Source of the DNA: Bryobacteraceae bacterium
GTDB taxonomy: Bacteria > Acidobacteriota > Terriglobia > Bryobacterales > Bryobacteraceae
Length of the DNA: 49,245 nt
Reading direction: 5' to 3'
Assembly (NCBI GenBank): GCA_025980665.1
Contig: JAICXC010000025.1
Coordinates: 1 to 49,245, forward strand
The notes beneath the pieces are model-generated. The model was not told the origin of the DNA. It ran no database searches and was given only the letters and a program-made list of their open reading frames with translations. Below are positions 24,751 to 33,383 of the stretch, piece after piece (the first letter of the stretch is position 1; each line of letters opens with the position of its first letter). Both the position numbers and the translations under genes were made by a program.

Positions 24751-26619
24751 ATGGTCGGGAGAACTGTCCACCATTATCAATTCCTAGAAAAACTCGGCGC
24801 CGGAGGAATGGGCGAGATCTGGAAGGCTCAGGATACCCGCCTCAACCGGTTCGTCGCCGTTAAGATTCTCACTGACGCCAGCGCCGGCGATCCCGAGCGC
24901 CGCCGGCGGTTTATTCAGGAAGCGCAGGCCGCTTCGGCGTTGAACCATCCCAACATCATCACCATCCATGACATCGTTTCGGAAGGCAACGCCGAATACA
25001 TGGTGATGGAATTCGTGCAGGGCAAGACGCTTATCGACCTGATTCCCAAGGGCGGCCTGCGCGTTCCACAAGTATTGAAATACGCGGTCCAGATGACCGA
25101 CGCTCTGCAGGTCGCCCACTCAGCCGGCATCATCCACCGCGATCTTAAGCCTGGCAACGTAATGGTGACGGAAACGGGACTGGTCAAGGTCCTGGATTTT
25201 GGCTTGGCCAAGCTGGCCGACAGCAGTCCCTTGAGCCAGACAGCTTCGAGCCCTACCGACGCCACGCAGACGATCAACCACGCGCCGCTCACGGTGGAGG
25301 GCTCGATCATCGGCACTGTGAGTTACATGTCGCCGGAGCAGGCCCAGGGCAAGCGGGTCGACTCTCGGTCCGATATCTTTTCTCTTGCGGTCGTGCTGTA
25401 CGAAATGGTGACGGGAACGCGGGCATTCGCGGGCGAATCGGCGCTCTCCACGCTCTCGGCGATCCTGCGCGACGAAGTCCGGCCCATCCCGGAGGTCGCG
25501 CCCGACACTCCGCCGCAATTGGAGCAGGTGATTCAGCGCTGCCTGCGAAAAAATCCCGACCAGCGCTTCCAGACGATGAAGGAAGTGCAGGTGGCATTGG
25601 GCGCATTGAAGCACGAGTCCGATTCCGGCATGCTGTATCGCACGCGCGCTGGAATGGAACCGTGGCCCAAACCCAAACGGTCACCCATGCCGATCATGCT
25701 CAGCGCCGGTGTTGCTATCGCCGTGCTGGCGATCGCGGGGGGCGGCACCTGGTGGTGGCTGCACCGGGCGTCCAAACCGCCGGCCGCTACGGAGATCCAA
25801 AATCCTGCTCCTGCGCCCCCTCCAGTCGCGGTGCAGCCGCCTCCCGTGACCGCTACTGTACCGGCCATCGCACCCGCGGATCAGGTGCTCAGCAACGACA
25901 ACATCCTTCAGATGGTCGAGGCGAAAGTTGCGCCCGCGGTAATTCTGAGTGAGATCCGTAATTCGAAGACCGCCTTTGTTCTTTCCGCACCGGAAATCAT
26001 CCGCCTCTCCAAGGCGGGCGTTTCGGAAACAGTTCTGGAGGCCATGCGCAACCCCAAAGCGGCGCCTTCGAAGCCTGCTGGGCCTGTCGTATCTGTGGCA
26101 CCTGCCCCCACCCCGGTTTCGACGACGCCAACCGCGCCGCCACCGGCAGCACCCGCCCCCACTCCCGTTCTAGCGGCCGCTCCGCCGTCTGCCGCGGGAG
26201 CCATCGTAGCTGTCACGCTGACAGATGGCATTCCGTTTTTCATTACTCTGGCGGAAGATATCCCGCAGAGCGCGCAGGAAGGTACCCCCCTTCGCTTCAC
26301 CGTGGCCAAAGATGTTCGCGTCGGCGATCTCGTTGTCATTGCGAAAGGTGCGGCTGTCACTGGGGCCATCGCTCAGGTCGGACGCAAAGGAACATTCGGA
26401 ATTGGGGGCGGCAAAATGACGATGCGCCTGCTGACGGTGGATGCGGTCGACGGACACAAGTATCGAATCCGTACCCAATCGGGCCGCAGCGGCGATGGCA
26501 AGAGCGAGCGTCCGGTAGAGACGAACGTGAAGCCCAAAAACAAGGACCTGGTGGCTGCCGCGGGAACAGAATACCTTGCTTATATTGACGGCGACGTAAC
26601 CGTTAGCGTGAAGAAGTAG
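24751..26619 (+). CDS. Membrane Ser/Thr protein kinase (PknB/Stk type)
   Basis: 622 aa. Kinase domain 9-285: Gly loop [11 protein letters not shown], Lys38 (VAVKIL), catalytic HRDLKPGN (Asp131), DFGLAKL (149-155) and SPEQAQG; all catalytic residues present. One TM helix at about 314-337. The extracytoplasmic part has a Pro/Ala-rich linker, a helical repeat-like part ([40 protein letters not shown]) and a C-terminal beta-rich domain (about 490-622). No PASTA repeats are present, so the signal is not the usual muropeptide. The helical part resembles segments seen before S/T kinases of Acidobacteriota that sense unknown cues. It has no phosphatase gene next to it. Confidence 0.93.
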
Positions 26620-26882: not shown

Positions 26883-28919
26883 ATGTTTGTTTACGCGGCT
26901 ACCATCTTCCTGAGCGCTTTTCTCCTGTTCCAGGTACAGCCGATGATCGCGAAATTCGTTCTCCCGTGGTTCGGGGGATCGGCCGCGGTATGGAGCGCAT
27001 CCCTGCTTTTCTTCCAGCTTTTGTTGCTGGCCGGCTATCTGTATGCACACTGCCTGATCCGGTATCTTAAGCCCAAGCAACAGATTATTGTCCATTGCAC
27101 ACTCCTCCTGATCAGCCTGGTCACGCTGCCGATTATTCCCAAAGACTATTGGAAGCCCATCGGCGGCGCCGATCCATTGCTGGGCATTCTGCTTCTGCTG
27201 GGGGCGACCGTTGGCCTGCCTTACACACTGCTTTCTGCCACCAGCCCCCTGCTCCAGGCCTGGTATCTGCGAACGAAATCCGACGTTATTCCCTACCGCC
27301 TGTTCGCGCTTTCGAACTTCGGGTCGATGCTGGCACTTCTGAGCTACCCCTTTCTGGTGGAACCCAACGTCACCCTTCGCTTACAAGCCCGGCTCTGGTC
27401 CGTCGGATTCGCGGCGTTTGCCGTCGCTTGCGGATTGGCAGCCTGGAAAAGCCGCGGCGGCACCGACCCGTTGCAGGCGGCCGCGCAAGAGAATGCCCCA
27501 CCGCCCCGCTTCTCGACCATCCTTATGTGGATTTCGCTGGCGGCCTGCGCCTCCACTCTGTTGCTGGCGACTACAAGTCACCTAACGCAAAATGTAGCGC
27601 CGATTCCGCTCTTGTGGATCGCCCCGCTGAGCATCTACCTGCTGACCTTCATCCTCTCGTTTGAAAGCAACAAAATCTATCAGCGCTGGCTGTTCCTGCC
27701 GCTCGGTCTGGTCGCGCTAGGCACATTCACTTACGGGATGAGTGAATACGAAAACAACAGTGACGTCATCAAGCGCCTGATTCCCATGCTGTGCGGAGCC
27801 CTTTTCATTGCCTGCATGGTCTGTCACGGCGAGCTTGCCCAACGCAAGCCGCATCCGCGCTACCTAACGCTGTATTTTCTGATGGTCTCGCTGGGCGGCG
27901 CGATTGGCGGATTGTTCGTTGCCCTGCTCGCGCCTCGCATGTTCCCCAACTACTGGGAAATGCCGATCGCGATCACCGGGCTAGGCGTGCTGATGGCCAT
28001 CGTGCTTTCTTATGACGATAAGGGCATGCCCCGGCCGCTGGCCGTGCGAGCGTCGCTGGTGATTGTGGCGCTCTCCTTCGGCGTTTATCTGGCCCGCCTC
28101 GAACGTCGCGCGAATGAGGAATATATCCTGGCCGCCCGCAATTTTTATGGCGTGCTTCGCGTCCGCGACGATCCTCCCGGCGGCGGCGTCGATGGAGTGC
28201 GTGTCCTGATCCATGGGACCATAAACCACGGCACGCAGCTCCTGGGTCCAGGCGGCGGACGCATCCCCACATCGTATTTCGGAGAAACCTCCGGCATCTC
28301 GCGCGCGATCCGCACCAAGGGGCAAAAGGGTCCCATTCGAATCGGCATCCTGGGGCTGGGCGCGGGTGTCACCGCGACGCTTGCCCGCGCCGGCGATACG
28401 CTGCACTATTACGAAATCAATCCGCTGGTGTTTCAAATCGCCCAGACCAAGTTCGATTTCTGGAAGGATTGCCCGGCCGACAAACATCTGTATTTCGGCG
28501 ACGGCCGCCTGACGCTTGAGGGCATGCAGGACAGCGAAAACCTCGATTTCCTGGCCATGGACGCCTTCACCAGCGACGCCGTGCCCATGCATCTATTAAC
28601 ACGTGAAGCTTATGCCACTTACGCGCGCCATCTGAAACCGGATGGTGTTCTGGCCGTCAACATCTCTAACCGGTATCTGGATCTGGAACCGATCATCGCC
28701 CAGGCCGCCAAGGAAATGGGCTGGTTCGGAATCGTGGTGTACGATGAAGGTAATTCGGAAACCTACTACGTTTCGAATACTTGGATCTTGCTGTCGAAAT
28801 CGTCCGCCGTATTCGCTGATCCTAACTTCCAGGACACCAACACCTACGCGCTGCAACCGCGCAAAGGATTCCGGGCCTGGACCGACGACTATAGCAATAT
28901 TATCCAGATACTGCGCTGA
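26883..28919 (+). CDS. Membrane-fused spermidine-synthase-like protein, copy 1
   Basis: 678 aa. The N-terminal half (to about 420) has 10-12 hydrophobic helices (MFVYAATIFLSAFLLFQVQP, AVWSASLLFFQLLLLAGYLYA). The C-terminal part (about 470-675) is a Rossmann methyltransferase-like domain of the spermidine synthase family: motif I ILGLGAGVTATLAR, YYEINPL, FGDGRLTLEG and MDAFTSDAVPMHLLTREAY. The conserved substrate Asp (DAFTSDAVP) is kept. True spermidine synthases are soluble; this fused type is common in Acidobacteriota and Planctomycetes and its substrate is unknown. A near-identical layout follows 12 nt downstream. Confidence 0.85.
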   Translation: MFVYAATIFLSAFLLFQVQPMIAKFVLPWFGGSAAVWSASLLFFQLLLLAGYLYAHCLIRYLKPKQQIIVHCTLLLISLVTLPIIPKDYWKPIGGADPLLGILLLLGATVGLPYTLLSATSPLLQAWYLRTKSDVIPYRLFALSNFGSMLALLSYPFLVEPNVTLRLQARLWSVGFAAFAVACGLAAWKSRGGTDPLQAAAQENAPPPRFSTILMWISLAACASTLLLATTSHLTQNVAPIPLLWIAPLSIYLLTFILSFESNKIYQRWLFLPLGLVALGTFTYGMSEYENNSDVIKRLIPMLCGALFIACMVCHGELAQRKPHPRYLTLYFLMVSLGGAIGGLFVALLAPRMFPNYWEMPIAITGLGVLMAIVLSYDDKGMPRPLAVRASLVIVALSFGVYLARLERRANEEYILAARNFYGVLRVRDDPPGGGVDGVRVLIHGTINHGTQLLGPGGGRIPTSYFGETSGISRAIRTKGQKGPIRIGILGLGAGVTATLARAGDTLHYYEINPLVFQIAQTKFDFWKDCPADKHLYFGDGRLTLEGMQDSENLDFLAMDAFTSDAVPMHLLTREAYATYARHLKPDGVLAVNISNRYLDLEPIIAQAAKEMGWFGIVVYDEGNSETYYVSNTWILLSKSSAVFADPNFQDTNTYALQPRKGFRAWTDDYSNIIQILR

Positions 28920-28931
28920 AAACTAACTCTC

Positions 28932-31016
28932 ATGATCCTTTACGCCATCACTATTTTCCTGAGCGCATTCCTGCTGTTCCAGGTGCAGCCACTGATCGCT
29001 AAGATCATACTTCCGTGGTTCGGAGGCTCAGCCGCCGTTTGGGCCGCCGCGCTGCTGTTTTTCCAGCTTTCACTATTAGCCGGATACGCCTACGCGCACG
29101 CTCTTATCAAAATGACCAAGGCGCGGACCCAACTTCTGGTCCACGGAACGCTGTTGCTGGCCAGCTGCGCGCTCCTGCCGATTATGCCTAACGTGACTTG
29201 GAAGCCAACGGCGATCGGCGATCCCACGCTGCGCATTCTCGAGCTGCTGGCGGCCACCATCGGGCTGCCCTATTTTTTGCTTTCATCAACAAGTCCACTG
29301 CTGCAAGCCTGGTATGTCCGCCGTACGGGCAGCAGTGTCCCTTACCGCCTTTTCTCGTTATCGAACTTCGGGTCGTTTTTGGCGCTCCTAAGTTTTCCTT
29401 TCGTCGTGGAGCCGAACTTGGCATCGCGCCAGCAGGCCTACTTCTGGAGCGCTGCGTACGTCGCGTTCGCGGCACTCTGTTTGATTACTGCTTGGGTGAG
29501 CCGGGAGGCTGCCTCCCCCGAACCCGTAGTAGCGGCATCTCCGGTGATCCGCGAGAAATCCGGCAAGCGTCCGACCGGTCTGCAACTCCTGCTTTGGGTC
29601 AGTCTGGCAGCTTGCGCGTCGACGCTTCTGGTGTCGATCACCAACCATATGAGCCAGAACGTGGCGCCCATTCCCTTGCTCTGGGTGGTACCACTGGCGA
29701 TCTATCTGCTGACCTTTATCCTCGCCTTTGAAAGCGACCGGGTTTACCAGCGCTGGATTTTTCTGCCTTGGGTAGCTCCGGCTTTGGGCTGGATGGCATA
29801 CGCGCTCTATGCCGGCGAAGGAAACTTCCACATCAAGTTTTCGATCCCCATTTTCTGCGCGGGTTTGTTCATCTGCTGCATGCTGTGCCACGGCGAGCTG
29901 GCGCTGCGTAAGCCTGCTCCTCAGTACTTGACGCTGTTTTACTTGATGGTGTCGGTGGGCGGCGCGATCGGCGGCATCTTCGTCGCCATCATCGCACCGC
30001 GCGTCTTCAACTCCTACCTGGAGCTTCCCATCGGTTTGGTTGCCTGCGGGGTATTGGGAACGATTGTCCTGTTTAATCTGGAGATCCCCGCGTTCAATAT
30101 GTTTGGACGCCGCTTCGCGTGGGGATCCTGGCCCATACGCTTCGCGCTGGCCGTTGGCGTCGGTCTCCTGGCCGGGTACCTGGTGCGGAAGGAACTGGAA
30201 GATCGCAAGGGTTATCACCTGTTCGCGCGGAATTTCTACGGCGAACTGCGGATTCGCGATGACGATGTCGGTCAGGAATATGCCCTGCGCAACCTGCTGC
30301 ATGGAACGATCAACCACGGATCGCAGCGGCTCAATCCGGAACACCGCTATGAGGTGAACTCTTACTATGCGCCGAGCTCCGGCATCGGTCGAGCCATGCA
30401 GGCCAAGCAGGCCCTTGGTCCGATACGGTACGGAGTCGTCGGCATGGGCGCCGGCGTCATGACTGGATACTGCCGCGCGGGAGACTACGTGCGCGTATAT
30501 GAAATCAATCCCCTGGTGAAATCGCTTTCCGAACGGGGTGAGTTCACCTTCTTCTCCCATTGCGCCGGCGATAAGGAAGTGCTGATGGGCGACGCCCGTC
30601 TCACAATGGAAAAGCAAGAGCCACAGAACTATGACGTGCTGGTCATCGACGCATTCTCAAGCGACGCCATCCCAGTCCACCTGCTGACCAGGGAAGTGAT
30701 GCAGCTATATTTCAAGCTGCTGAAGCCCGACGGTGTGCTGGCCGTACACATTTCGAACCGCTATCTGAATCTGGCGCCGGTGTGCGAGCGGGGCGCGGAA
30801 TTCGTCGGAAAGAAGGCTACCGTAGTGGCCGACGATGCCTCTGACAATACCTTCGCCAACTCCACCACGTGGGTTCTGATTACTTCTCCGGACAACAACG
30901 TATTTCAGAATCCAAGTTTCGAAGGAGCGAACATGTATCCGGCCACCGCCGACGCTACCTTCCGCGGCTGGACCGATGATTACAGCAGCATCTTACCGAT
31001 CCTAAGTTTGAATTAG
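28932..31016 (+). CDS. Membrane-fused spermidine-synthase-like protein, copy 2
   Basis: 694 aa, clearly a paralogue of the gene just upstream: both begin with ITIFLSAFLLFQVQPLIAK or a near match, share WFGGSAAVW, and both end with FRGWTDDYS or FRAWTDDYS. C-terminal domain motifs: VVGMGAGVMTGYCRAGDY, VYEINPLVKSL, MGDARLTMEK, DAFSSDAIPVHLLTREVM. Divergence is visible throughout, so the duplication is not recent. Only 12 nt separate the genes, so they are co-transcribed. They may form a heteromer or act on related membrane-associated substrates. The stop codon overlaps the convergent TIR gene. Confidence 0.85.
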   Translation: MILYAITIFLSAFLLFQVQPLIAKIILPWFGGSAAVWAAALLFFQLSLLAGYAYAHALIKMTKARTQLLVHGTLLLASCALLPIMPNVTWKPTAIGDPTLRILELLAATIGLPYFLLSSTSPLLQAWYVRRTGSSVPYRLFSLSNFGSFLALLSFPFVVEPNLASRQQAYFWSAAYVAFAALCLITAWVSREAASPEPVVAASPVIREKSGKRPTGLQLLLWVSLAACASTLLVSITNHMSQNVAPIPLLWVVPLAIYLLTFILAFESDRVYQRWIFLPWVAPALGWMAYALYAGEGNFHIKFSIPIFCAGLFICCMLCHGELALRKPAPQYLTLFYLMVSVGGAIGGIFVAIIAPRVFNSYLELPIGLVACGVLGTIVLFNLEIPAFNMFGRRFAWGSWPIRFALAVGVGLLAGYLVRKELEDRKGYHLFARNFYGELRIRDDDVGQEYALRNLLHGTINHGSQRLNPEHRYEVNSYYAPSSGIGRAMQAKQALGPIRYGVVGMGAGVMTGYCRAGDYVRVYEINPLVKSLSERGEFTFFSHCAGDKEVLMGDARLTMEKQEPQNYDVLVIDAFSSDAIPVHLLTREVMQLYFKLLKPDGVLAVHISNRYLNLAPVCERGAEFVGKKATVVADDASDNTFANSTTWVLITSPDNNVFQNPSFEGANMYPATADATFRGWTDDYSSILPILSLN

Positions 31017-31033
31017 ATCGGAGTTTGAATTAG
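31005..31033. repeat. 12-nt direct repeat around convergent stop codons
   Basis: AGTTTGAATTAG occurs at 31005-31016 and again at 31022-31033, 17 nt apart start to start. The first copy contains the stop codon of the second spermidine-synthase-like gene; the second contains another in-frame-looking TAG. The TIR gene on the other strand ends inside the first copy. It looks like a small local duplication that lengthened the TIR protein by a few residues. Confidence 0.55.
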
Positions 31034-31591
31034 CCGGCAGCCGGCTTGCCCGGGCTTCGACCCGGCTTGTACGGCCCGGATAACTTTCTGGATCCCGACA
31101 TCCCAATCCGGGAACAAGTCGACGTACTGCGTCCGCTCCTGGATCTGCCTCGGCACGGCGCACGCCTCCAGCCGGACCGGAACGACGAAGGTTTGATCGA
31201 TCGGCATCCGTTGCCCGCATTCGAGCGCCCACCGCAGTTCGCTTTGAAACGGCCCGCGCTTGGAAGTCGAGCGCGCTGAGAAGCACGCGACGAATACGTC
31301 GGAAATCTCGATGGCCCGTCGAATCGCCCGCGGCCAGTTCTGCCCCGGAATCAGTTTGTCCTTGTCCATCCAGGGCGAACATCCGGCCGCCGCTAGCATG
31401 TCTCGCAGTCGCCGCGCGAGCAGGAGATCCTCCTCCACGTATGCGATGAACACTTGCGGCTCGGTTTGGGCTATGAACTCATAAGCCCCGTCGGTCCCGC
31501 GCCGAAACATCCCCAATCCGTCAATCTCCACAGTCTGGCCGCGCTCGAGTGACCGCCGGATCATGGCCAGAATCCGCCGGGGATTCTTCAC
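31013..31591 (-). CDS. TIR-domain protein with N-terminal HU-like DNA-binding fragment
   Basis: 192 aa from a GTG at 31591. Residues 4-31 (RRILAMIRRSLERGQTVEID then GLGMFRRG) match helix 2 and the first beta hairpin of HU/IHF proteins (compare GxGxF after a KxGxxVxL segment). Residues 45-172 are a TIR domain: EPQVFIAYVEEDLLLARRL, WMDKDKLIPGQNWPRAI, SDVFVACFSARSTSKRG, and FQSELRWAL with Glu118 at the place of the catalytic glutamate of TIR NADases; ends with VPVRLEAC and QYVDLFPDWDVG. TIR domains cleave NAD+ in many anti-phage systems (Thoeris, TIR-STING, Avs); whether this one does is unknown. It is translationally coupled (GTGA) to the HU-like gene upstream. Its C-terminus overlaps the convergent gene. 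Confidence 0.85.
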   Translation of the reverse strand: MKNPRRILAMIRRSLERGQTVEIDGLGMFRRGTDGAYEFIAQTEPQVFIAYVEEDLLLARRLRDMLAAAGCSPWMDKDKLIPGQNWPRAIRRAIEISDVFVACFSARSTSKRGPFQSELRWALECGQRMPIDQTFVVPVRLEACAVPRQIQERTQYVDLFPDWDVGIQKVIRAVQAGSKPGQAGCRLIQTPI

Positions 31592-31770
31592 CGTTGTTTG
31601 TGTGTCCCGGCGCGTCTTACGAGCGTTCCAATCCCAGGCAGTTTGACTGGACGCCCGCTCCGTAGCTTCGTCACAATCCGGTGTACCAGTTCATCGATCC
31701 GGTCCTGAGCTACCGCGACGGGCAAGCCATCCTCGCGTGCCAGTTTGCGGGTCAGTTCGTCGCGCTTCAT
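31588..31770 (-). CDS. Short HU-like DNA-binding protein
   Basis: 60 aa from the ATG at 31770; a longer TTG-initiated frame to 31833 is less likely because family similarity begins at MKRDELTRKL. The sequence follows HU helix 1 (RDELTRKLAREDGLPVAVAQ), helix 2 (RIDELVHRIVTKLRSGR) and the first beta strands (PVKLPGIGTLVRR, HU consensus LxGFGTF), but stops before the DNA-embracing arms and the C-terminal helix (HU is about 90 aa). It is therefore a truncated, arm-less HU relative. The last nucleotides overlap the start of the TIR gene (GTGA), so the two are made together. It may pair with the HU-like end of the TIR protein to complete a dimer. Confidence 0.8.
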   Translation of the reverse strand: MKRDELTRKLAREDGLPVAVAQDRIDELVHRIVTKLRSGRPVKLPGIGTLVRRAGTHKQR

Positions 31771-31984
31771 GTCGTTTGAGGGTATCCTCAGATTCGAGCT
31801 CACCGAGACCGTGGTGGATAGCAATAGCTTCAATAAATAGAACTTAACCGAAATAGGGGCCGGGAACCTTCTGGAATGAAACGATTTTAATGGATGTTTA
31901 AGGGCCTATTCATGTCCGGTTGTAAACATAGAAGTGCTGCGACGGTATTTGCCGTTCGGCCAAGAAAGAGGAGATCTCACCCAA

Positions 31985-32206
31985 ATGAAGAAGCTCGTGA
32001 ACATCATGCTGGCCATGGCGCTGACCATCGGCGTTGCCGGCATCACCGTAGCCCAGGACGCCCCCAAGGACGCCACGAAGAAGGCTGCCAAGAAGGGCAA
32101 GAAAGATAAGGACGCCAAGGGCGACACCAAGAGCACCGACGCTAAGGCCAAAAAGGGCAAGGCCAAGAAGGGCAAGGACGGCGATACAACCGCGCCCACG
32201 AAGTAA
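31985..32206 (+). CDS. Small exported lysine-rich protein
   Basis: 73 aa from the ATG at 31985, where a signal peptide begins (MKKLVNIMLAMALTIGVAG, cleavage likely after TVAQ). The mature part is almost only Lys, Ala, Asp, Gly and Thr (repeats of KKGKKDKD and AKAKKGKAKKGK type), with no hydrophobic core and no cysteine. GAGGAGA lies 10-14 nt upstream. Such low-complexity cationic exported proteins may bind polyanions or the cell surface; no function is known. It is followed by a strong intrinsic terminator, so it is likely a single-gene, well-expressed transcript. Confidence 0.75.
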   Translation: MKKLVNIMLAMALTIGVAGITVAQDAPKDATKKAAKKGKKDKDAKGDTKSTDAKAKKGKAKKGKDGDTTAPTK

Positions 32207-32232: not shown

Positions 32233-32285
32233 ACCGCGGTGGGCTGCCTGCTCGAAGGACGTCCCCCGCGGTTTCGTTTTTTTTT
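32233..32285 (+). terminator. Rho-independent terminator
   Basis: A stem ACCGCGG (32233-32239) pairs with CCGCGGT (32266-32272), extended after one mismatch by GGG/CCC, and is followed by TTTCG and a run of nine or ten T (32276-32285). It ends the small Lys-rich gene 27 nt after its stop. The chromate-transporter pair on the other strand ends at its far edge; the hairpin could also slow that transcript, but the U-run serves the + strand. Confidence 0.82.
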
Positions 32286-32802
32286 AGCGGAACAGGCTGG
32301 CCGCAAGCCCTGCGCCCGCCGCGCCCAGCATCAACCACGCCGAATCTATCCGCGTGAACGTGAGAACCGCGAAGCTCGCCACCATCAGGATTACCGAAAA
32401 CACGCCCGTGAACGCATCCTGCGTGAGGGGCACCGAAGAGGAAACCAACAAGCCCACGCTGGCCAGCAGCAATCCCCGAATCGCGCTACGGACCCTAGGG
32501 ATGTCGGCTCGCGCCCCGATCCAGCGCATCAATGGGATTACCAAAAAAGCCGGCGTGATCAGCGCCAGAAACCCTACGCATGCCCCGGGAATGCCTCCCA
32601 CCTCATAGGCGACGCATACCAGGTAGAGCCCGAACGGTCCCGGTCCGGTGCGTCCCGCCACCACGGCCATATTTAGCTGGTGATCGGTGAGCAGATGGCG
32701 CTCGACCACGAAATCATCCCGCACCATGGGTAGCGATCCGAGGCCGCTAAATGACGTCACGCTGGCCTTGAGCAGCAACAAATAGAGCACCAGCAGATTC
32801 AC
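32284..32802 (-). CDS. chrA: Chromate transporter half-protein, second subunit
   Basis: 172 aa from the GTG at 32802, which overlaps the stop of the first subunit (GTGA). One CHR domain with about six TM helices: LLLKASVTSFSGLGSLPMVR, LTDHQLNMAVVAGRTGPGPFG, YEVGGIPGACVGFLALITPAF. Chromate transporters of the short type work as pairs of opposite-topology halves coded side by side; the family exports chromate (or sulfate-like anions) with the membrane potential. The T-rich terminator lies directly past its stop. Confidence 0.88.
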   Translation of the reverse strand: MNLLVLYLLLLKASVTSFSGLGSLPMVRDDFVVERHLLTDHQLNMAVVAGRTGPGPFGLYLVCVAYEVGGIPGACVGFLALITPAFLVIPLMRWIGARADIPRVRSAIRGLLLASVGLLVSSSVPLTQDAFTGVFSVILMVASFAVLTFTRIDSAWLMLGAAGAGLAASLFR

Positions 32803-33383
32803 GGTTTCTTGGCGTCCTTCCAGAGGAATCCGGTCAGCGTGCCTGCGAGGATGATCGGCAGGGGAGTGAGTCCGAAGATCCAGGACGCCACGAACGCTCC
32901 TCCCGCAATCAACACGACTTGCAGATTGCGGATCATGCCATTCCACGTCGTCCCGCCTACATGGGGCTTGAGGATGATCCAGATGGTGGCCCACATCATG
33001 CCCGCAACGGCTGCCACGGTTCCTCCGATGGCGGCCATCGCGATCCGGTTCCCCTGCCAACGTTCGAATCCGTAAGCGATTAATACGGCCAGCGCCGACG
33101 AGGGCGCGGTAAGAGCCAAGACCGCCCCAATCGCCCCCGCCACGCCGCAAATCAGCGCGCCGATCGCCGCGCAGAACGCGATCAGGTTGGTTCCAGGCGT
33201 AACCCGCGCAATTGCAAACGCCAGATCGAACTTCTCCGCGTTGATCCAGCGGCGCGCGTCGACCAGTTCCCTTCCCAGCATCCCGATGGTCACGTATCCA
33301 CCGCCGAAGGTGGTGTTGCCGATGCGGAAGAAAATCTCCGTGAGCTTCTTGACCGAGGGAGGAGGATTTTGCGGCGGATTCAA
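32799..33383 (-). CDS. chrA: Chromate transporter half-protein, first subunit
   Basis: 194 aa. One CHR domain: FFRIGNTTFGGGYVTIGMLG (FGGG motif), WINAEKFDLAFAIARVTPGTNLIAF (the PG motif) and four to six TM helices. The start is TTG at 33383; no ATG precedes the conserved region, and the ribosome site is weak, so the start is not certain. With the downstream half it makes a heterodimeric short-chain CHR transporter. No chromate reductase or ChrB regulator is nearby, so the true substrate may be another oxyanion. Confidence 0.87.
   Translation of the reverse strand: MNPPQNPPPSVKKLTEIFFRIGNTTFGGGYVTIGMLGRELVDARRWINAEKFDLAFAIARVTPGTNLIAFCAAIGALICGVAGAIGAVLALTAPSSALAVLIAYGFERWQGNRIAMAAIGGTVAAVAGMMWATIWIILKPHVGGTTWNGMIRNLQVVLIAGGAFVASWIFGLTPLPIILAGTLTGFLWKDAKKP

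Follow-up and report, generated by a model that had tools for sequence, protein, structure and literature searches.

We describe here a pair of adjacent, overlapping genes in a stretch of 49,245 nucleotides (hereafter the window) from a Bryobacteraceae bacterium (contig JAICXC010000025.1 of assembly GCA_025980665.1). The first gene encodes an arm-less relative of the histone-like protein HU, named HU-short (P0001), and the second encodes HU-TIR (P0002), in which an N-terminal piece of ~42 residues, a second and shorter HU piece, precedes a TIR domain. Comparison of their sequences suggests that HU-short and the HU half of HU-TIR may assemble into a single complex of the HU type, which would control or position the TIR enzyme, a reading to which we give a probability of about 0.45. 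Both open reading frames (ORFs) and their GTGA overlap were confirmed where the original prediction, made from the letters of the window, had placed them (Table 1).

The HU-short protein retains the first part of the HU fold. PF00216 matches its residues 1-57 at profile positions 1-57 of 90 (E 2.7e-6, 28 bits; cut-off 22.4), and because the match stops there, the protein ends at approximately the point where the DNA-binding arm would start. Helix 1, helix 2 and the first hairpin of HU are kept and are followed by a short basic tail, and the gene stops three residues after the profile match; the beta-ribbon arm and the C-terminal helix of HU and IHF are absent. The structure model has helices at residues 2-14 and 18-38 with a predicted local distance difference test score (pLDDT) of 72, and a Foldseek search with it placed HU on top (1huu, probability 0.98, template modelling score 0.68, but E 0.38). 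A profile built from 57 HU-short proteins found HU structures in the PDB at 2.3e-10. Among these 57 proteins, PF00216 matches 49 and HU-CCDC81_bac_2 matches 48 (E up to 0.01), and the median net charge is +7 (range 0 to 17). P0001 had no match in PADLOC, and in NCBIfam a single one, far below the cut-off. The earlier description of the first gene product as an arm-less HU relative is thus supported by both the Pfam match and the profile search against known structures.

The kinship of the second HU piece emerged at the level of profiles. HU-CCDC81_bac_2 matches HU-TIR residues 10-42 at profile positions 28-60 of 70, with E 3.9e-4 and 20.7 bits, short of the family's cut-off (35). When 57 HU-half pieces were compared with Pfam at E up to 1, HU-CCDC81_bac_2 matched 52, HU-HIG 50 and PF00216 37, and in the PDB the HU-half profile had IHF and HU on top, weakly (best 8.8e-4, chain 2iif_A). 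The HU-short and HU-half profiles, of 57 sequences each, align with each other (probability 96.7, E 3.3e-10), and the alignment spans helix 2, the hairpin and the following stretch; a separate hhalign run of the HU profiles against each other gave probabilities of 83-84 (E about 1e-6), and the control, HU-short against the TIR core, 0.1-0.4 (E 0.47 and 0.09). Single-sequence BLASTP between HU-short and HU-TIR returned nothing meaningful. The HU-short proteins of some loci (among them L020, L021, L072 and L105) have extra sequence past the hairpin, with a phenylalanine pattern that equals that of the HU-TIR N-terminus. Since these longer relatives carry the same pattern, the data fit a common origin of HU-short and the HU half. 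The proposal that the first residues of the TIR protein repeat the HU pattern is borne out by these profile alignments.

Our genome comparisons revealed that the two genes are kept together. Strong HU-TIR matches (E 1e-45 or better) were counted from a table of 257 genomes of the order, 184 of which carry one (194 at 1e-15), and 125 of these loci were opened, in sets of 21, 36 and 68 that were taken from the listed matches, partly for long contigs and not at random. The short HU gene lies directly upstream of HU-TIR in all 125 opened loci, in one of them interrupted (L054, with a 27-residue HU fragment open); L124 was missed by the position filter and was counted as paired after its frames were read. 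No fused HU-HU-TIR gene was found, the HU and TIR frames being separate in all 125; a 337-residue open frame at L124, considered as a fusion, is no more than open sequence that precedes an ordinary pair. The two genes overlap in 51 of the first 57 pairs, by 4 nucleotides (nt) in 29 of these, and the remaining six pairs lie 1-7 nt apart; of the further 68 pairs, 57 overlap, two abut and nine lie 2-19 nt apart. These distances rest on start codons chosen by script, and the value for L124 was measured against the wrong ORF. The ratio of nonsynonymous to synonymous substitution rates (dN/dS) is 0.06-0.19 for HU-TIR in seven of seven close pairs and likewise 0.06-0.19 for HU-short in the five of seven where dS was computable, and both genes are under purifying selection. 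The constant pairing and these ratios rule out chance or a mere overlapping ORF as the source of the arrangement, and the conservation of the pair in related genomes, on which the original prediction depended, holds.

All strong matches fall within the family of the window (f1), in 184 of its 237 genomes and mostly as one match per genome; the genome of the window itself has one, and the 20 order genomes outside the family have none at 1e-45. A wider sample of 396 genomes from across the phylum contained three strong matches, at about 1e-90 and all in members of the same family; in seven other genomes the match begins only at model position 32, which leaves the TIR part, and the remaining genomes show no HU-TIR match at 1e-20. 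We also inspected 22 family genomes that are at least 90% complete and have no strong HU-TIR match. Of these, 21 have no match at 1e-15, and the other (G197) has only one of 4.6e-18. No intact HU-short was seen in the 22, with at most 150 candidates scored per genome, so that a miss is possible. Ten of the 22 gave weak HU-like matches, 13 in all (E 4.9e-7 to 0.008); ten of these 13 matches were opened, of which nine read as full-length HU genes with the arm and one as a broken HU-short-like piece. Remnants are seen in two genomes: in G109 (L196) a broken HU-short-like piece persists with no TIR match, and G226 (L184) holds an interrupted HU and TIR pair. Both are either products of decay or assembly errors.

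The second part of HU-TIR is covered by PF13676 (TIR_2). Position 118 is Glu in 124 of the 125 loci and Asp in one, as anticipated from the window alone, and Phe115, Trp74, Asp76, Gly83, Gln84, Trp86, Ser105 and Arg140 are invariant across the 125 proteins. The best matches of the HU-TIR profile in the PDB include TIR-APAZ chains (top E 1.6e-6), and the PADLOC model most similar to its TIR part is that of the TIRs of Argonaute-linked proteins (1.7e-15). In the alignment with the TIR chain 8ifk_A of SPARTA, Glu118 corresponds to residue 77 (residue number counted by hand), and E77A is the catalytic mutant in PMC10474274. We assume that 8ifk_A is the protein of that paper, the available passages of which do not name these PDB entries. 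On this sequence evidence, an NAD-cleaving activity of HU-TIR is plausible. Another view would be that the TIR domain is non-catalytic and only self-associates, making the pair a nucleoid scaffold or regulator. In 124 of the 125 proteins, the WxxxE motif lacks its Trp (the position holds Trp in one, Tyr in three and Phe in two), and PMC11374754 reports this Trp to be weaker in non-catalytic TIRs as well as in TIRs with non-cyclic products. If HU-TIR is an enzyme, the missing Trp would lead us to expect ADPR as its product, not a cyclic one. However, the SPARTA chain likewise has no aromatic residue there, but Gly, and Glu118 is retained while positions 110, 114 and 117 vary. We regard a non-catalytic TIR as unlikely, but worth keeping in mind.

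These features would be accommodated by an obligate two-protein module, in which HU-short would associate with the HU half of HU-TIR, as the subunits of IHF or HU do with each other, and the resulting HU-type complex would hold, place or gate the TIR domain. The TIR domain is probably a real NAD-cleaving enzyme, which would remain off until the complex changes its state, perhaps on encountering a specific structure in DNA or RNA, or once HU-short is lost. The pairwise distances of HU-short and HU-TIR are correlated over 20 loci (r 0.62; none of 2000 permutations reach it).

Several results weigh against this proposal. The AlphaFold model of HU-TIR, based on three sequences, is unusable (pLDDT 40.7), though its N-terminal order of helix-strand-strand-strand fits HU. 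Mean-field direct coupling analysis of 123 of the 125 pairs (L124 and L054 were left out) showed no excess of couplings of HU-short with the HU half over those with the TIR part, at low power: 5 of the top 20 couplings (5.1 expected) and 11 of the top 50 (12.8 expected) join HU-short and the HU half. Of the 237 family genomes, 53 have no strong match, including some that are 98-99% complete, and the pair is thus dispensable. Between HU-TIR and uvrC, the correlation of distances is weak (r 0.24, a value reached in 24 of 2000 permutations), so that vertical descent is supported only modestly. The scarcity of the WxxxE Trp belongs among these points as well.

Given the gene order, we also considered a toxin-antitoxin-like arrangement, in which HU-short would be an inhibitor that has to be produced ahead of HU-TIR and binds to its HU half, and loss of HU-short would free a toxic TIR. 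The position of the small gene in front, the short overlap and the strict co-occurrence in the opened loci agree with such an arrangement, as do the lack of intact HU-short alone in the 22 genomes and the broken piece without a TIR match in G109. Against this, no plasmid, phage or viral-contig copy was found, and the genes occur in one family with mostly one match per genome. On balance, we find this explanation quite improbable.

The original prediction pointed to the NAD+-consuming TIR domains of anti-phage systems. In an anti-phage role, the HU complex would sense phage DNA or loss of the host nucleoid, and the TIR would drain NAD+ and kill the infected cell. The kept Glu118 and the resemblance to Argonaute-linked and TIR-APAZ proteins speak in its favour. 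However, matches of P0002 in PADLOC and NCBIfam concern the TIR part only, with no whole-model or curated-cut-off match to a known defence system. We analyzed the neighbourhood of 40 loci and the window, 41 in total, in fetched stretches of 5-9 kb, and scanned 124 of 182 neighbour ORFs, which were called by script and are not proven genes. At 1e-10, PADLOC gave 36 families, with many helicase models among the matches listed, and each of the best 25 of the 36 matches one ORF. There is thus no repeated defence neighbour among these 25, and a defence island was rejected on that ground. Phage records gave no match, and among viral contigs 74 stretches fit a pattern and none was confirmed. Plasmid records gave seven partial matches, all to the TIR part only and none with 80% coverage; a Rhodococcus plasmid match starting from residue 7 was considered as an HU half and rejected, having a stop in the stretch and no HU profile match. 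Together with the presence of a strong match in most genomes of one family, these results weaken the anti-phage reading, which we now hold to be unlikely. What stands of the original prediction is the coupling of two HU pieces that are kept together and the almost invariant Glu.

The locus has the appearance of a chromosomal component long retained within one family, and for this reason we favour a cell-intrinsic switch for stress or damage over a dedicated gene of a phage-defence island. A particular form of such a switch would be an HU heteromer that reads distorted or damaged DNA and thereby triggers NAD+ cleavage by the TIR, a logic like that of PARP. The retention in family chromosomes and the proximity of uvrC are cited for it. 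In 21 of the 41 loci, a codirectional UvrC-type ORF follows downstream, and in 18 it starts within 2 kb; of the 124 scanned neighbour ORFs, 16 are confirmed as UvrC by Pfam. Downstream of HU-TIR, five loci (L067, L071, L072, L076 and L106) have a convergent gene for a secreted TPR-like protein of ~150-160 residues. In all of these except L076, it sits between HU-TIR and uvrC, which therefore do not form one operon there. This specific form would be a long shot.

A divergent small gene, which encodes a secreted Lys-rich protein, lies upstream of the pair, and a 38-bp palindrome-like element of four AT-rich boxes about 11 bp apart lies between them (Table 1). The divergent layout and the element, which at up to two mismatches is single in the genome of the window, raised the possibility that the pair is a local transcription regulator of the small gene that binds this element. 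At the same tolerance, the element occurs in 122 of the 257 order genomes (one match for the backward control), and in some loci it is present twice, with about 400 bp between the copies. Among 20 regions chosen because the element and HU-TIR seemed to be apart, 19 have no HU-TIR piece, and the small gene adjoins the element in 14, at a distance of 61-71 nt in 13 and of about 96 nt in one. Conversely, two genera (g31 and g72) have HU-TIR and no element at up to two mismatches. An empty site is seen in G197 (L182), where the small gene, the element and uvrC are present and the pair is missing between them. Since the element and the small gene occur without an adjoining HU-TIR, we read the element as a control element of the small gene, not of the pair; regulation of the small gene by the pair through this element was ruled out on that ground, and we give local regulation hardly any credence.

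Seven of the 41 loci have tRNA genes, at scattered positions. In the window, HU-TIR is followed downstream by a convergent gene that matches fused MFS/spermidine synthase proteins in NCBIfam. Two adjacent genes at 26883-28919 and 28932-31016 encode proteins of 678 and 694 residues with alike beginnings, the second of which matches NCBIfam MFS_SpdSyn. Two overlapping frames on the minus strand at 32284-33383 each resemble parts of chromate transporters. A protein-kinase gene at 24751-26619 has strong PADLOC PD-T4-6 matches, probably only through the shared kinase domain.

Table 1. Features of the HU-short/HU-TIR locus, in coordinates of the window
Feature	Position	Strand	Basis or remark
HU-short gene (gene 1, P0001), 60 residues	31588..31770	-	PF00216 match, family profile, structure model
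HU-TIR gene (gene 2, P0002), 192 residues, GTG start	31013..31591	-	ORF, Pfam domains, orthologues
GTGA overlap, HU-short stop codon and HU-TIR GTG start	31588..31591	-	Sequence
HU-half module of HU-TIR (helix 2, GLGxF hairpin, third strand)	31454..31588	-	Profile matches
TIR_2 domain of HU-TIR, residues 47-170	31082..31453	-	PF13676, E 1.2e-22
Glu118 codon, catalytic-type glutamate	31238..31240	-	124/125 Glu, one Asp; SPARTA alignment
Palindrome-like element, 38 bp, ATGAA-N7-TTAA-N6-ATTAAA-N5-TTCAT	31876-31913		Between HU-short and the divergent small gene
Divergent small gene, secreted Lys-rich protein	31985-32206		Element 71 nt upstream

Bacterial TIR proteins have been studied mostly as defence effectors, which are often mobile. 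A TIR protein that is widespread through one family, mostly in single copy, and coupled to a histone-like protein suggests a resident function elsewhere than in defence islands, and the pair makes it testable whether nucleoid-type proteins can gate NAD+ consumption. If our proposal is correct, HU-short would be, among the literature matches listed, the first regulatory subunit of the HU type for a TIR effector. The pair is absent from these matches, and they contain no described TIR system with an HU subunit, in agreement with the original prediction; a 2017 paper by Burroughs and colleagues on new HU/IHF clades, which lay outside the search, might mention such an architecture.

Compared with known systems, HU-short shares helix 1, helix 2 and the hairpin with the HU/IHF family (PF00216), but it ends before the DNA-binding arm, lacks the third helix and has a basic tail instead. 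HU-CCDC81_bac_2 (PF18175) is the commonest Pfam match of the HU half, with the proteins of the window below its curated cut-off, and we know of no TIR fusion in that family. In toxin-antitoxin operons, a small upstream gene overlaps the effector gene, and so it does here, but our pair is widespread and mostly single-copy in one family, with no plasmid or phage copy found. The TIR-APAZ protein that acts with a short Argonaute in SPARTA has a similar TIR part, being the best PDB and PADLOC match, and its residue 77 aligns with Glu118. However, of the 430 positions of the PADLOC model only 5-132 are matched, and the partner in our pair is HU, APAZ and Argonaute being absent. The available passages of PMC8195603 describe 12 effector-associated domains (EADs), of which nine are alpha-helical, and place them in conflict systems that include STAND or MoxR-vWA parts. 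In the EAD-TIR systems among them, two neighbouring genes carry the same small domain, which in one of the two is fused to TIR and which is proposed to unite the partners. Our pair differs in that its adaptor is of the HU type, HU being unnamed in these passages; no STAND or MoxR-vWA gene was seen at the locus, where the Pfam scan of neighbours covers the best 25 of 104 families. Like the EAD-TIR systems, the pair has the same adaptor domain on two neighbouring genes, as judged from the alignment of the two HU profiles, and the EAD principle, as given in these passages, is the closest published logic that we found.

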